A stretch of 64,000 nt of DNA from Dermabacter sp. Its GTDB lineage: Bacteria > Actinomycetota > Actinomycetes > Actinomycetales > Dermabacteraceae. Location: the NCBI GenBank assembly GCA_030538475.1, contig JAUNTX010000004.1, positions 248,001-312,000 on the forward strand, given 5' to 3'. The notes beneath the pieces were generated by a model. The model was not told where the DNA came from. It ran no database searches and saw only the letters and a list, made by a program, of their open reading frames with translations. Both the position numbers and the translations under genes were made by a program. Of this stretch, positions 49,712 to 53,647 are shown in pieces (positions within the stretch are counted from its first letter, which is position 1; each line of letters begins with the position of its first letter).

Positions 49712-50125
49712 ATGGGATGGAAGATCGGCGCCGCCGCGATCACGGCCGTGACCCTCGGTTTCGTGTGGGGCCTCGGCTGGCTCGCGTACGGCTTCCTCAG
49801 TTCCGGCACCCCGCTCGGCATCGGGGTCGGGGTCGGGATCGCGATCCTCACGCCGATCAGCCTGTGGACCATCCTGCGCGAAGTGCGCTTCGGGATCGCC
49901 ACCCAGCGGCTCGGCCGGGCCGAGGCCCGCGAGGACTTCCTGGCCGGGGTGGAGCTCGGGGATTTCGTCGGTGCGAAGGCGCAGGCGGAAGCCGAGCCGG
50001 AGAACTGGCGCGCGTGGTATCGCCTCGCGATTGCGTATGACCTGAACCGTGACCGGCGGGCCGCGCGGGCGGCCATGCGCCAGGCGCTGCGCGGCTACAC
50101 GAGCGAGACCGCCCGGCAAACCTGA
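49712..50125 (+). CDS. Small membrane protein with TPR-like tail
   Basis: 137 residues. Two N-terminal membrane helices (about 5-30 and 34-57), then a soluble helical region (FLAGVELGDFVGAKAQAEAEPENWRAWYRLAIAYDL; ...RRAARAAMRQAL) resembling one TPR unit. No family assigned. The start lies seven bases after dapB; a weak ribosome site suggests coupling. Confidence 0.72.
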   Translation: MGWKIGAAAITAVTLGFVWGLGWLAYGFLSSGTPLGIGVGVGIAILTPISLWTILREVRFGIATQRLGRAEAREDFLAGVELGDFVGAKAQAEAEPENWRAWYRLAIAYDLNRDRRAARAAMRQALRGYTSETARQT

Positions 50126-50203: not shown

Positions 50204-50269
50204 CGAGCGCGTTCGCCCGTGCGCCCCTCACGTCCGAACCACCCGCCCCAGCATTGCCCAGGAGTTCTC

Positions 50270-51370
50270 ATGCCTCAGCCCGCCAGCCGCCGCGCGGCGC
50301 TCGCCGGGCTCGGGGCGCTCGCGGCAGCTCTCGGCGCGGGCACCCGCGGTGCGACGGCAGCGCCCCCGTCGGCCCCCGCTTCTGGGCTTCCTGACTCGGG
50401 GCTTCCCGCGCCCCAGCGCTCCGGCGCCTGGCCCCGGGCCGAGCACTCCACCCCCTCGCCTTCGACGAGCGCGACGGATGAGCGGCCGCTCGCCGAAGCG
50501 CTCGCGATTCCCGCCTCGACCGCCTCGATTGCCCTGTGGGGCTCGAGTTCGATGGAGGGCGGTCTCGGCGCCGAACACACGCCGAGGCCGGTCTACATCC
50601 ACGACGAACTCGTCCTCACCGTGAACCCCCTGCCGGTGTTCAACGTGGCCTACGGCGCGCAATGGTCGAACCACACCACGCTGCTGCGCGGCCTGGACAC
50701 CCCCGTGGTGCGGCTACCCGCGGGCTATAGCGGGGGAAAGGTGCCGGTGCAGGTGCAGACCGACGCGGCGGCGCTGTGGACCTTCACGTGCGCGGGCCAG
50801 ATCGAGGGCGGGCCGCACGGCACCCTCACCGGGAGCGCCGAGCACCAGTGGTTCTTCGAGGCCGACGTCCAGGACACGGGAAACTGGGCCACCACGGGCC
50901 GGTTCGTCTCCGACTGGAAGGCCCGCACCGAGGATTCCCGCCACGTGATCTGGACGGGCAAGAACAACATTGGCGACCTGTCGCGCGTGAACGCCGACGT
51001 GGACGCGCTCGTCAAGGCGGCGCGGAACCCGGAGGCCGACGCGATTGTGCTGGGGCAATGGGTGACGAGGAACGATCTCGCGCATCCGCGCAAGATCGCG
51101 AACGTGCACCAGGCCAACCGGGTGCAGGGCGAACGCTATGGCCGCCGCTTCATCGACGTGCAGGACATCCTCACGAGCGAGGCGGGGCTGACCGCGGATC
51201 CCATCTGGGACCTGGGGCTCATGAGCGACCAGGAGACGCAGAAGGAGCGGGAGCAGGGCATCGTGCCGACGCCGCTGCGCGGCACCGACGGCATTCACCT
51301 CAGCGGCTGGGGGAATCTTTTGGTGGCGTGGGCGCTCATCGATCGGATGAAGGAACTGCGGTGGCTGTGA
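50270..51370 (+). CDS. Secreted SGNH/GDSL-type hydrolase or acyltransferase
   Basis: 366 residues. The N-terminus ASRRAALAGLGALAAALG looks like a twin-arginine signal, so the protein is exported. A Pro/Ser-rich linker follows (to about 80). SGNH blocks: block I GSSSMEGG (91-98, catalytic Ser near 93), block III GKNN (230-233) and block V DGIHLSGWG with Asp340 and His343. This set fits esterases that remove or transfer O-acetyl groups on wall polymers; the substrate is unknown. ATG 50270 follows AGGAG. Confidence 0.82.
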   Translation: MPQPASRRAALAGLGALAAALGAGTRGATAAPPSAPASGLPDSGLPAPQRSGAWPRAEHSTPSPSTSATDERPLAEALAIPASTASIALWGSSSMEGGLGAEHTPRPVYIHDELVLTVNPLPVFNVAYGAQWSNHTTLLRGLDTPVVRLPAGYSGGKVPVQVQTDAAALWTFTCAGQIEGGPHGTLTGSAEHQWFFEADVQDTGNWATTGRFVSDWKARTEDSRHVIWTGKNNIGDLSRVNADVDALVKAARNPEADAIVLGQWVTRNDLAHPRKIANVHQANRVQGERYGRRFIDVQDILTSEAGLTADPIWDLGLMSDQETQKEREQGIVPTPLRGTDGIHLSGWGNLLVAWALIDRMKELRWL

Positions 51371-51401
51371 CGGGTGCCGGGGCGGGAAGAGGCGGGTGCG
51401 C

Positions 51402-52118
51402 ATGGGCGTCGTGAGAGATGAAGGCGGACAGCAGTTCACGGCGCGCCGCGGCCTCATCGTGGGCTCGCTCGGCGTGGCCGTCGCCGCGACGGCTGCGCTG
51501 TGGCCCACCCGAACCACCCTCGGCGAGCACGACGGCGATGCCTCGACCCCCATTGAGCGGGACGCCGCGTGGCTGCTCGAGTCGGGGATCGCCACCGAAG
51601 AGGAATCCGGCAGGAGCCTCACCGACCCCGTGACCCGCGAAGAAATCGCCGTGTACCTCTTCCGCCTCGCCGGATCGCCCAACTATCCCGACCCGCAGCA
51701 GGAGCCGTACCGCGATGTCACGGCGAAGTCCACGAACTTCCGCGAGATCATGTGGATGCGCGGGCAGGCCATCGCGTTCGGCGCGTTCGATGCGACCTTC
51801 CGCCCCACCGAGCTGGTCTCGCGCGGCGAAATGTGTGCGTTCCTCTCCCGCATGCTGCACGTCCACCTCGAGCGGCACCTCGCCGAAAGCGGGGGAGCGC
51901 TGCACGCCAGCATCGGCGAGTTCAGCGACGTGCACGCCACCCACCGCTACGCTCGCCCGATCCAGTGGGCCCGCGAATGCGGCCTCATCGACGAGGTGAT
52001 GCTGCTCGCCGCGCCCGCCGCTTCCGACGGTGAGGCGCCCGCTTTCCATCCCGACGCGGACCTCCAGCGCGGCCACCTGGCCCACCTGCTGCGCGGCGCC
52101 GAAGGACTCTTCGCCTAA
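51402..52118 (+). CDS. SLH-domain exported protein
   Basis: About 238 residues. Twin-arginine-like lead TARRGLIVGSLG and one hydrophobic segment, then about three S-layer-homology units. The clearest is PYRDV...REIMWMRGQAIAFGAFDATFRPTELVSRGEMCAFLSRML; others start at REEIAVYLFRLAG and FSDVHATHRYARPIQWARECGLI. SLH domains bind pyruvylated secondary wall polymers. ATG 51402 is nine bases after AGAGG; GTG 51396 is alternative. Placed 31 bases after the SGNH gene. Confidence 0.82.
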   Translation: MGVVRDEGGQQFTARRGLIVGSLGVAVAATAALWPTRTTLGEHDGDASTPIERDAAWLLESGIATEEESGRSLTDPVTREEIAVYLFRLAGSPNYPDPQQEPYRDVTAKSTNFREIMWMRGQAIAFGAFDATFRPTELVSRGEMCAFLSRMLHVHLERHLAESGGALHASIGEFSDVHATHRYARPIQWARECGLIDEVMLLAAPAASDGEAPAFHPDADLQRGHLAHLLRGAEGLFA

Positions 52119-52209
52119 AACACGCTCCCTCGCCCGACCGACGATTCGGTAGGATACGCGAGGCGCCACCGGCGCCGCACAGTCGACGCAGGGGATGCGA
52201 GGGGAAAGC

Positions 52210-53346
52210 ATGACGGCCACGGGCAGCACGCCGCCGGTCGGGGCGCGGGGCGCGCACGAGCCCGTGCGCGTTCTGGGCGACGCCCTCGATACGCGCGATA
52301 ACGCCCTCAACCTCGTGCGGCTCGTGCTCGCGCTCGCGGTGATCTTCGGCCACGCCTTCCCGCTCGGCGGATTCCCCGGTTTCCAGGCGGGTCCGTTCGT
52401 GCACGCGGGGCTGCACGGGCTCGCCGTCCACGCGTTCTTCGCAATCTCCGGCTACCTCATCCTCGCCTCGGGGCTGCGCCTGCCCACGGGGATCTACCTG
52501 TGGCGGCGGTTCCTGCGCATCTATCCCGGGTTCCTCGTCGCGGTCCTCATGACCGCCTTTGTCTTCGCCCCGCTCGGCGGGATGCTCGAGCCGGGCGCCC
52601 GCTGGGAAGCATCCTCGGCGGCGCAGTACGTGCTTGGCGCCCTTGATCTCAAGCCGTCCCAGGAGGGCGTGGAGAGAACGCTCGTGGCCGTGCCCTGGCC
52701 CGAAACGTGGAACGGTTCGCTGTGGACCCTGTTCTACGAGGCCGCCGCCTATCTGGGCATCGCCGTGATCGTCGGCCTGCCCCTCATCCGCCGGGCGCTG
52801 CCGGTCATCGTGCCGATCGCCGCCGTGGCGGGAAGTTTCGTGTACGCGTTCGTGGACCTCGCCTCGCTGCTCTCGTCCCTCCCCACCGCGCTCGCGGATG
52901 TGCTCGTCACGGGGACCGGGCTCTGGGTGCCGTTCCTCTGGGGGATGCTCGCCTTCCAGTGGCGGGACCGTCTTCCGGCGCGCCCGCTCGCCGTGGCCGT
53001 GGCGGCGCTCGCGTTCCTCGTGCTCGCGCACCTCGCGGTGGGTGGGATTCTTGCCGAGCTCATGACCGTGGTGCGCACCCCGCTGCTCGCGTACACGGTG
53101 CTCGGCGCCGGCGCCGTCCTGCGCTCGCGCATCGGGCAGACCAACGACCTGTCCTACGGCATGTACGTCTACGCGTTCCCCGTGCAGCAGATCCTCATCC
53201 TGCTCGGCGTCCAGCAGCTCGGCTGGTTTCTCACCGCCGCCCTGTGCGCGCTCGCCACCCTGCCGTTCGCGGCCCTGTCCTGGGTCCTCATCGAAAAGCC
53301 CGCGCTTGCTCTTGGCGCTCGCCGACGCCCCACGGGGCAGGGCTAA
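52210..53346 (+). CDS. Acyltransferase-3 (OafA/OatA-type) membrane protein
   Basis: 378 residues with about ten membrane helices. N-terminal signature NLVRLVLALAVIFGHAFP contains the paired Arg37 and His48 of the AT3 family; later RRFLRIYPGFLV and YLILASG match. AT3 proteins move acyl groups across the membrane for O-acetylation of glycans. It lacks the C-terminal SGNH domain of OatA; a separate SGNH protein is encoded 1.8 kb upstream in the same direction. ATG 52210 follows GGGGAAAG. Confidence 0.9.
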   Translation: MTATGSTPPVGARGAHEPVRVLGDALDTRDNALNLVRLVLALAVIFGHAFPLGGFPGFQAGPFVHAGLHGLAVHAFFAISGYLILASGLRLPTGIYLWRRFLRIYPGFLVAVLMTAFVFAPLGGMLEPGARWEASSAAQYVLGALDLKPSQEGVERTLVAVPWPETWNGSLWTLFYEAAAYLGIAVIVGLPLIRRALPVIVPIAAVAGSFVYAFVDLASLLSSLPTALADVLVTGTGLWVPFLWGMLAFQWRDRLPARPLAVAVAALAFLVLAHLAVGGILAELMTVVRTPLLAYTVLGAGAVLRSRIGQTNDLSYGMYVYAFPVQQILILLGVQQLGWFLTAALCALATLPFAALSWVLIEKPALALGARRRPTGQG

Positions 53347-53527: not shown

Positions 53528-53647
53528 ATGTCCGGTCAATTTATAGGCATCGCCTTCCAAGAACTCCTGTTGCTCGTTGGCGGGATCGCAGGCGCGTGCG
53601 CCCTGCTATACGTCACGATTCGAGCCGCCACGAGGCCGCGAAAGTAG
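53528..53647 (+). CDS. 39-residue single-helix membrane miniprotein
   Basis: Short ORF with a strong ribosome site GGAGGAG nine bases before the ATG. The product has a polar start (MSGQFIGIAFQE), one hydrophobic helix (LLLLVGGIAGACALLYVTI) and a basic end (RAATRPRK), which predicts the C-terminus inside. It resembles no family I know. It stands alone between the acyltransferase and HAD genes, on the same strand. Confidence 0.55.
   Translation: MSGQFIGIAFQELLLLVGGIAGACALLYVTIRAATRPRK

Follow-up and report, generated by a model that had tools for sequence, protein, structure and literature searches.

A putative phage-tail-type SGNH hydrolase and its SLH partner form a conserved gene pair in Dermabacteraceae

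We identified a conserved two-gene unit, an SGNH hydrolase gene and an adjacent gene for an SLH protein, in a 64,000-nucleotide stretch of a Dermabacter genome (the window; Table 1); the pair has so far been found in one bacterial family only, the Dermabacteraceae. Judged from sequence profiles and structure models, the hydrolase is of the phage-tail type, not of the OatA or PatB type, and the odds are somewhat in favor of its being a wall-glycan O-acyl esterase that is docked, and perhaps carried, by the SLH subunit. An acyltransferase-3 (AT3) gene follows the pair in the window; it is a lineage-specific neighbor and not a member of the conserved module.

The locus and its surroundings

An earlier note on this DNA had read the co-directional forward-strand genes at 50270-53346 as encoding SGNH, SLH, and AT3 proteins, with AT3 as a domain separate from SGNH; Pfam searches, the family alignment, and structure models bear out these identities, and the AT3 protein is indeed a stand-alone one. 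The gap between the SGNH and SLH genes is 31 bp, and that between the SLH and AT3 genes 91 bp. The gene order in the window is ribF, rpsO, pnp, M16 peptidase, dapB, small gene, SGNH, SLH, AT3, HAD phosphatase, thyX, dapA, rnj, and ftsK; the SGNH gene is thus surrounded by dapB, thyX, dapA, and other core genes, and not by a phage structural module. Three congeners have the same core cluster (dapB, SGNH, SLH, HAD, thyX, and dapA), without the small gene and without AT3. A promoter scan of the locus found none, whether shared by AT3 and the pair or not; three terminator-like sites were found (1.3 expected), all within genes, and an NCBIfam search at the locus gave no family match. Downstream of the AT3 gene, positions 53528-53647 of the window may encode a membrane protein of 39 aa with a single span; its Shine-Dalgarno sequence is good. 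The window's own genome (G000; Dermabacter group) has 2.53 Mb in 13 contigs with a completeness of 100%, and genome-wide statements on it rest on profile and protein searches.

Table 1. Features of the window (first seven lines) and of related loci.
Feature	Position	Strand	Remarks
SGNH hydrolase, 366 aa, tail-fiber type	50270..51370	+	ATG start; Tat-like N-terminus SRRAAL; from family alignment, AlphaFold model, and viral matches
SGNH key residues	Ser93 50546-50548, Asn232 50963-50965, Asp340 51287-51289, His343 51296-51298	+	Family alignment
Beta-rich domain inside SGNH, residues 157-214	50738..50911	+	Between blocks II and III; common to phage tail fibers
Shine-Dalgarno sequence of SGNH gene	50260..50264	+	AGGAG; from sequence
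SLH partner, 238 aa	51402..52118	+	ATG start, or GTG at 51396; RR hydrophobic N-terminus; degenerate SLH trimer; groove 2 is Arg79, Gly127, Trp189
AT3, stand-alone acyltransferase-3, 378 aa	52210..53346	+	ATG start (better Shine-Dalgarno spacing), or at 52195; lineage-specific neighbor outside the conserved pair
Small membrane/TPR-like protein	49712..50125	+	Lies between dapB and SGNH; missing from this position in three congeners
Glycan cluster	L092:5852-12687 (G000, contig 9)		Second AT3 (about 35% identical to window AT3), GT2, DUF2304, epimerase, fused AT3-SGNH
Amidase anchor exchange	L131:7098-8017 (G001) vs L090:6260-8036 (G002)		Swapped as one piece; LGFP form in G000 (L130) too

Conservation of the SGNH-SLH pair

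The SGNH gene adjoins a gene for an SLH or SLH-like protein in 26 of the 27 SGNH-bearing Dermabacteraceae genomes (27 pairs), including all four Dermabacter genomes, and the two genes overlap in some congeners. The exception is G008, with a stand-alone SGNH gene; the only other stand-alone gene is a third copy in B. timonense (G020). The Brachybacterium pairs are found in a quite different gene order, adjoining a tricorn-type protease, which was considered as an associate of the pair and then treated as mere synteny, since it is not adjacent to the pair in Dermabacter. AT3 is found beside one pair, the window's own, and is absent beside the other 26; a protein search for relatives of the window AT3 in the three congeners came up empty, both at this locus and in the rest of their genomes. 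The functional link that had been proposed among the three genes therefore stands in part: the adjacency of SGNH and SLH looks functional, while the triple is not conserved across the Dermabacteraceae, which speaks against a three-gene envelope-acylation module. In 394 genomes across the class, the search for chromosomal tail-fiber-type SGNH genes outside the Dermabacteraceae gave one weak match (E 3e-4). Within the family, the SGNH gene looks dispensable, since two Brachybacterium genomes have it disrupted, one (G030; L087:7377-9682) by an IS21-type element with IstA-like and IstB genes and the other (G026; L088:7500-8217) by a broken reading frame.

Kinship of the SGNH hydrolase with actinophage tail fibers

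Pfam gave only a sub-threshold DUF459 match to the SGNH protein (15.3 bits, against a cut-off of 27.2). Ser93 (in GSSS), Asn232 (in GKNN), Asp340, and His343 are invariant in the 15 aligned family sequences, and the glycine of block II is present, as judged by eye, in 13 of them; all the residues tested for the SGNH superfamily (Ser, Gly, Asn, and His of blocks I, II, III, and V) were found. The AlphaFold model (mean pLDDT 82, with the first 64 residues unreliable) has an SGNH hydrolase fold in which a beta-rich insert separates blocks II and III. Its matches to solved structures are general: the carbohydrate esterase PbeAcXE in the VIA comparison (Z 16.0, 185 residues, rmsd 3.1), and PatB as the top PDB match in Foldseek (E 6e-3). 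A sequence profile of the SGNH protein gave nothing useful against PDB sequences.

Matches to viral proteins are specific. Against the viral models of BFVD, Foldseek gave a best E of 9.6e-18 (compared with 6e-3 for the best PDB enzyme), and the matches are tail fibers and minor tail proteins of Arthrobacter, Gordonia, Rhodococcus, and Clavibacter phages. The PHROGs search led to the tail-fiber family PHROG 11419 (E 9e-9 and 1.6e-10), and HHalign with a profile of phage sequences gave 99.6% (E 7.7e-25) over 263 columns, with the inserted beta-domain covered. This kinship surfaced only with profiles and structures; tblastn with the window SGNH protein alone found no match among plasmids and annotated phages. 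The tail-fiber SGNH domains (Rhodococcus phages ReqiPepy6 and ReqiPoco6, Gordonia phage Patos, Arthrobacter phage GurgleFerb, and PHROG 11419) share with the Dermabacteraceae proteins the whole SGNH fold, the inserted beta-domain, the catalytic residues, and the C-terminal helix; the Dermabacteraceae proteins, in contrast, are chromosomal, about 300 aa long, without fiber parts, and paired with SLH, with no tail genes nearby. PatB and OatA resemble the window SGNH in the fold and in their wall-facing chemistry; the window SGNH differs from them in having no conserved MBOAT or AT3 partner and in its tail-fiber sequence family, so its earlier reading as an OatA/PatB-type part is not upheld.

The SGNH proteins of the Dermabacteraceae form one clade in the tree (support 100/99); the tree is rooted at its midpoint, so that transfer from phage to host is just one possible direction of the relationship. 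Some tail-fiber SGNH domains strip O-acetyl groups from host polysaccharides, as was found by NMR for Possum gp66 (PMC9569702), a Gram-negative case drawn from the literature. From the tail-fiber homology and these known O-deacetylases, we infer that the SGNH protein may be a wall-glycan O-acyl esterase. An IMG/VR contig (L154:2677-5480) carries a homologous SGNH tail-fiber gene with an AT3-like gene directly after it, possibly a pair of viral receptor eraser and writer.

The SLH partner and its ligand groove

One repeat of the SLH protein is above the Pfam cut-off (PF00395, 30.1 bits), and the structure model has the full trimer (E 2.2e-6 and probability 1.00 in Foldseek against SpaA-SLH 7sv4). 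The groove 2 pocket of SpaA is made of Arg43 of repeat 1, Gly29 of repeat 2, and Trp13 of repeat 3, which contact pyruvate (PMC6081394). Among the 27 SLH partners, this Arg43 is retained in all, Gly29 of repeat 2 in 25, and Trp13 in 24; Gly29 of repeat 1 is retained in four, and Gly29 of repeat 3, after realignment, only in the two complete-trimer partners (L084 and L085). All three Gly29 residues are retained in the CsaB-linked amidase SLH trimers (n = 6). The window SLH trimer has one groove intact (Arg/Gly/Trp), with grooves 1 and 3 broken. These residue patterns suggest selection on one SLH groove, whether or not the genome has CsaB; alternatively, the groove 2 residues could be retained for folding. 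The SpaA and Sap SLH trimers share the trimer fold and the groove 2 Arg, Gly, and Trp with the window SLH partner, which differs from them in having a single intact groove, no CsaB in its genome, and no enzyme or S-layer part on its chain.

A profile search for the pyruvyltransferase family PF04230 (CsaB) found no match in G000 (the window's genome, completeness 100%), G001, or G029. The sole SLH matches in G000 and G029 are the SGNH partners; in G001, the genome search gives two SLH repeats, the number in its SGNH partner, and the window SLH query finds that partner only. Since PF04230 is absent from G000, a CsaB-made polymer is not predicted for its SLH protein, and CsaB-dependent anchoring was rejected for this genome; the earlier note had suggested that the gene group decorates the polymer bound by the SLH protein and had proposed seeking csaB elsewhere in the genome, where none was found.

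CsaB varies within Dermabacter together with a purL-linked amidase: in G002 and G003, the amidase has a C-terminal SLH trimer and csaB adjoins it, and in G000 and G001, csaB is absent and the amidase has C-terminal LGFP repeats instead. Between G001 and G002, 0.92 kb of LGFP DNA replaces 1.78 kb of SLH and csaB DNA, with flanks that are 91% and 88% identical. This clean exchange indicates that SLH and CsaB change together at the amidase, while the SGNH-SLH pair is retained in all four genomes. In Helcobacillus (G004; L133:6939-9356), the gene beside the SLH amidase encodes a fusion of a CsaB-like pyruvyltransferase and a family 2 glycosyltransferase.

Export signals

All 27 SLH partners have twin arginines and a hydrophobic stretch (maximum 14-residue hydropathy 1.75-2.54), and 26 of the 27 paired SGNH proteins have no such RR hydrophobic stretch after the start codon, the exception being the window's; both stand-alone SGNH relatives carry an RR signal of their own. 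An RR stretch at L065 (hydropathy 1.46) lies upstream of the start codon and was discounted. TatC is present. The stand-alone, signal-bearing SGNH of B. timonense (G020c) is sister to all other SGNHs in the tree, and that of G008 is placed beside Dermabacter (with moderate support, long branches, and the midpoint root); the distribution fits an ancestral SGNH signal that was lost after pairing, in a few independent losses.

A signal-less hydrogenase subunit is exported together with its Tat-bearing partner (PMC10924467), and the RR stretches match this hitchhiker pattern in 26 of the 27 pairs. By analogy, the signal-less SGNH proteins may be co-exported through the Tat signal of the SLH partner; the window species is the exception, where the SGNH has its own Tat-like signal and carriage would not be needed. 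The twin-arginine stretch of the SLH partner could instead be a plain membrane anchor.

The AT3 neighbor

The window AT3 matches PF01757 with 78 bits, and the catalytic motifs described for AT3 proteins (PMC9833829) are all present: R-X10-H (R37-H48), RXXR (R100-R103), FX5L, and SXXXY (S315-Y319); the protein is thus probably active. It shares the AT3-only architecture and all catalytic motifs with the stand-alone AT3 proteins WbaK, WecH, and B. anthracis OatA; unlike them, it is encoded outside a polymer synthesis cluster. The three congeners have other AT3 genes, most of them in long frames sized like fused AT3-SGNH proteins. G000 itself encodes elsewhere (on contig 9) an enzyme of 841 aa in which AT3 and SGNH are fused in the ordinary way, so the window SGNH was judged unlikely to be a missing domain of OatA.

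Discussion

The explanation that we favor is that the SGNH protein would be a carbohydrate O-acyl esterase of the actinophage tail-fiber kind, encoded on the chromosome with no other tail genes. The SLH protein would be exported or membrane-anchored by its twin-arginine N-terminus and would fold as an SLH trimer, whose remaining groove would hold an acidic wall glycan, so that the esterase is positioned at the cell wall. In most relatives, the SLH protein may in addition act as the Tat carrier for an SGNH protein without a signal. O-acyl groups on a wall glycopolymer would then be cleaved off by the pair. Such groups may be added by the window AT3, which the pair would not need.

A compatible extension takes the two as writer and eraser: a wall glycan would be acylated by AT3 and deacylated by the SGNH-SLH pair, and together they would set the acylation level in this species only. 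The viral contig on which an AT3-like gene directly follows the homologous SGNH tail-fiber gene favors it; the window is a single case among 27 pairs and no shared promoter was found, and we regard the extension as unlikely. AT3-only proteins occur widely and can work either by themselves or alongside a separate SGNH protein, as WecH can with PatB (PMC9558356). A split OatA-like module could be imagined, in which AT3 moves acyl groups across the membrane and SGNH transfers them to the SLH-bound polymer. The three genes are adjacent and co-directional and the AT3 motifs are intact, as such a module would have it, but AT3 is confined to one pair, congeners have no relative of it, a fused AT3-SGNH enzyme is encoded elsewhere, CsaB is absent, and the SGNH is of the tail-fiber type; we consider this module very unlikely.

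Two other readings concern where the proteins act and what they bind. The SGNH of most relatives could be cytosolic and act on esters of cytoplasmic glycolipids or metabolites, with SLH as a membrane-anchored neighbor that does not handle it; the lack of a signal in 26 of 27 paired proteins agrees with this, whereas the RR signals of the stand-alone relatives and of the window SGNH, and an adjacency retained across otherwise different gene orders, make it unlikely. The SLH partner could also bind a polymer pyruvylated by an enzyme outside PF04230. We know of no such pyruvyltransferase family, and the amidase in the same CsaB-less genomes has LGFP repeats and not an SLH trimer; although the pyruvate-contacting residues of groove 2 (PMC6081394) are retained even without CsaB, this seems to us quite unlikely. 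Going beyond the favored explanation, the Dermabacteraceae might have tamed a phage tail-fiber esterase and hold it on their own wall by an SLH carrier, where it would clear away the acyl marks on which phage adsorption depends and so provide standing protection against phages; in most species, the enzyme, lacking a signal, would leave the cell with the help of its SLH partner's Tat signal. We consider this speculation improbable.

The earlier interpretation is thus partly supported, and the SGNH-SLH pairing is real and more interesting than it had stated. Both observations that the earlier note had named as refuting its idea, no co-occurrence of the three genes in relatives and no CsaB in the genome, were made here, and a three-gene acylation module with a CsaB polymer is not supported. 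If the explanation that we favor is true, a virus-type receptor-modifying enzyme would be resident in the wall, served by an anchoring subunit of its own. A pyruvylated ligand is regarded as indispensable for SLH display, and here an SLH trimer would persist without it. All four Dermabacter genomes have the pair, but just two of them have CsaB and SLH anchors. This natural experiment makes ligands of the SLH groove other than pyruvylated ManNAc directly testable.
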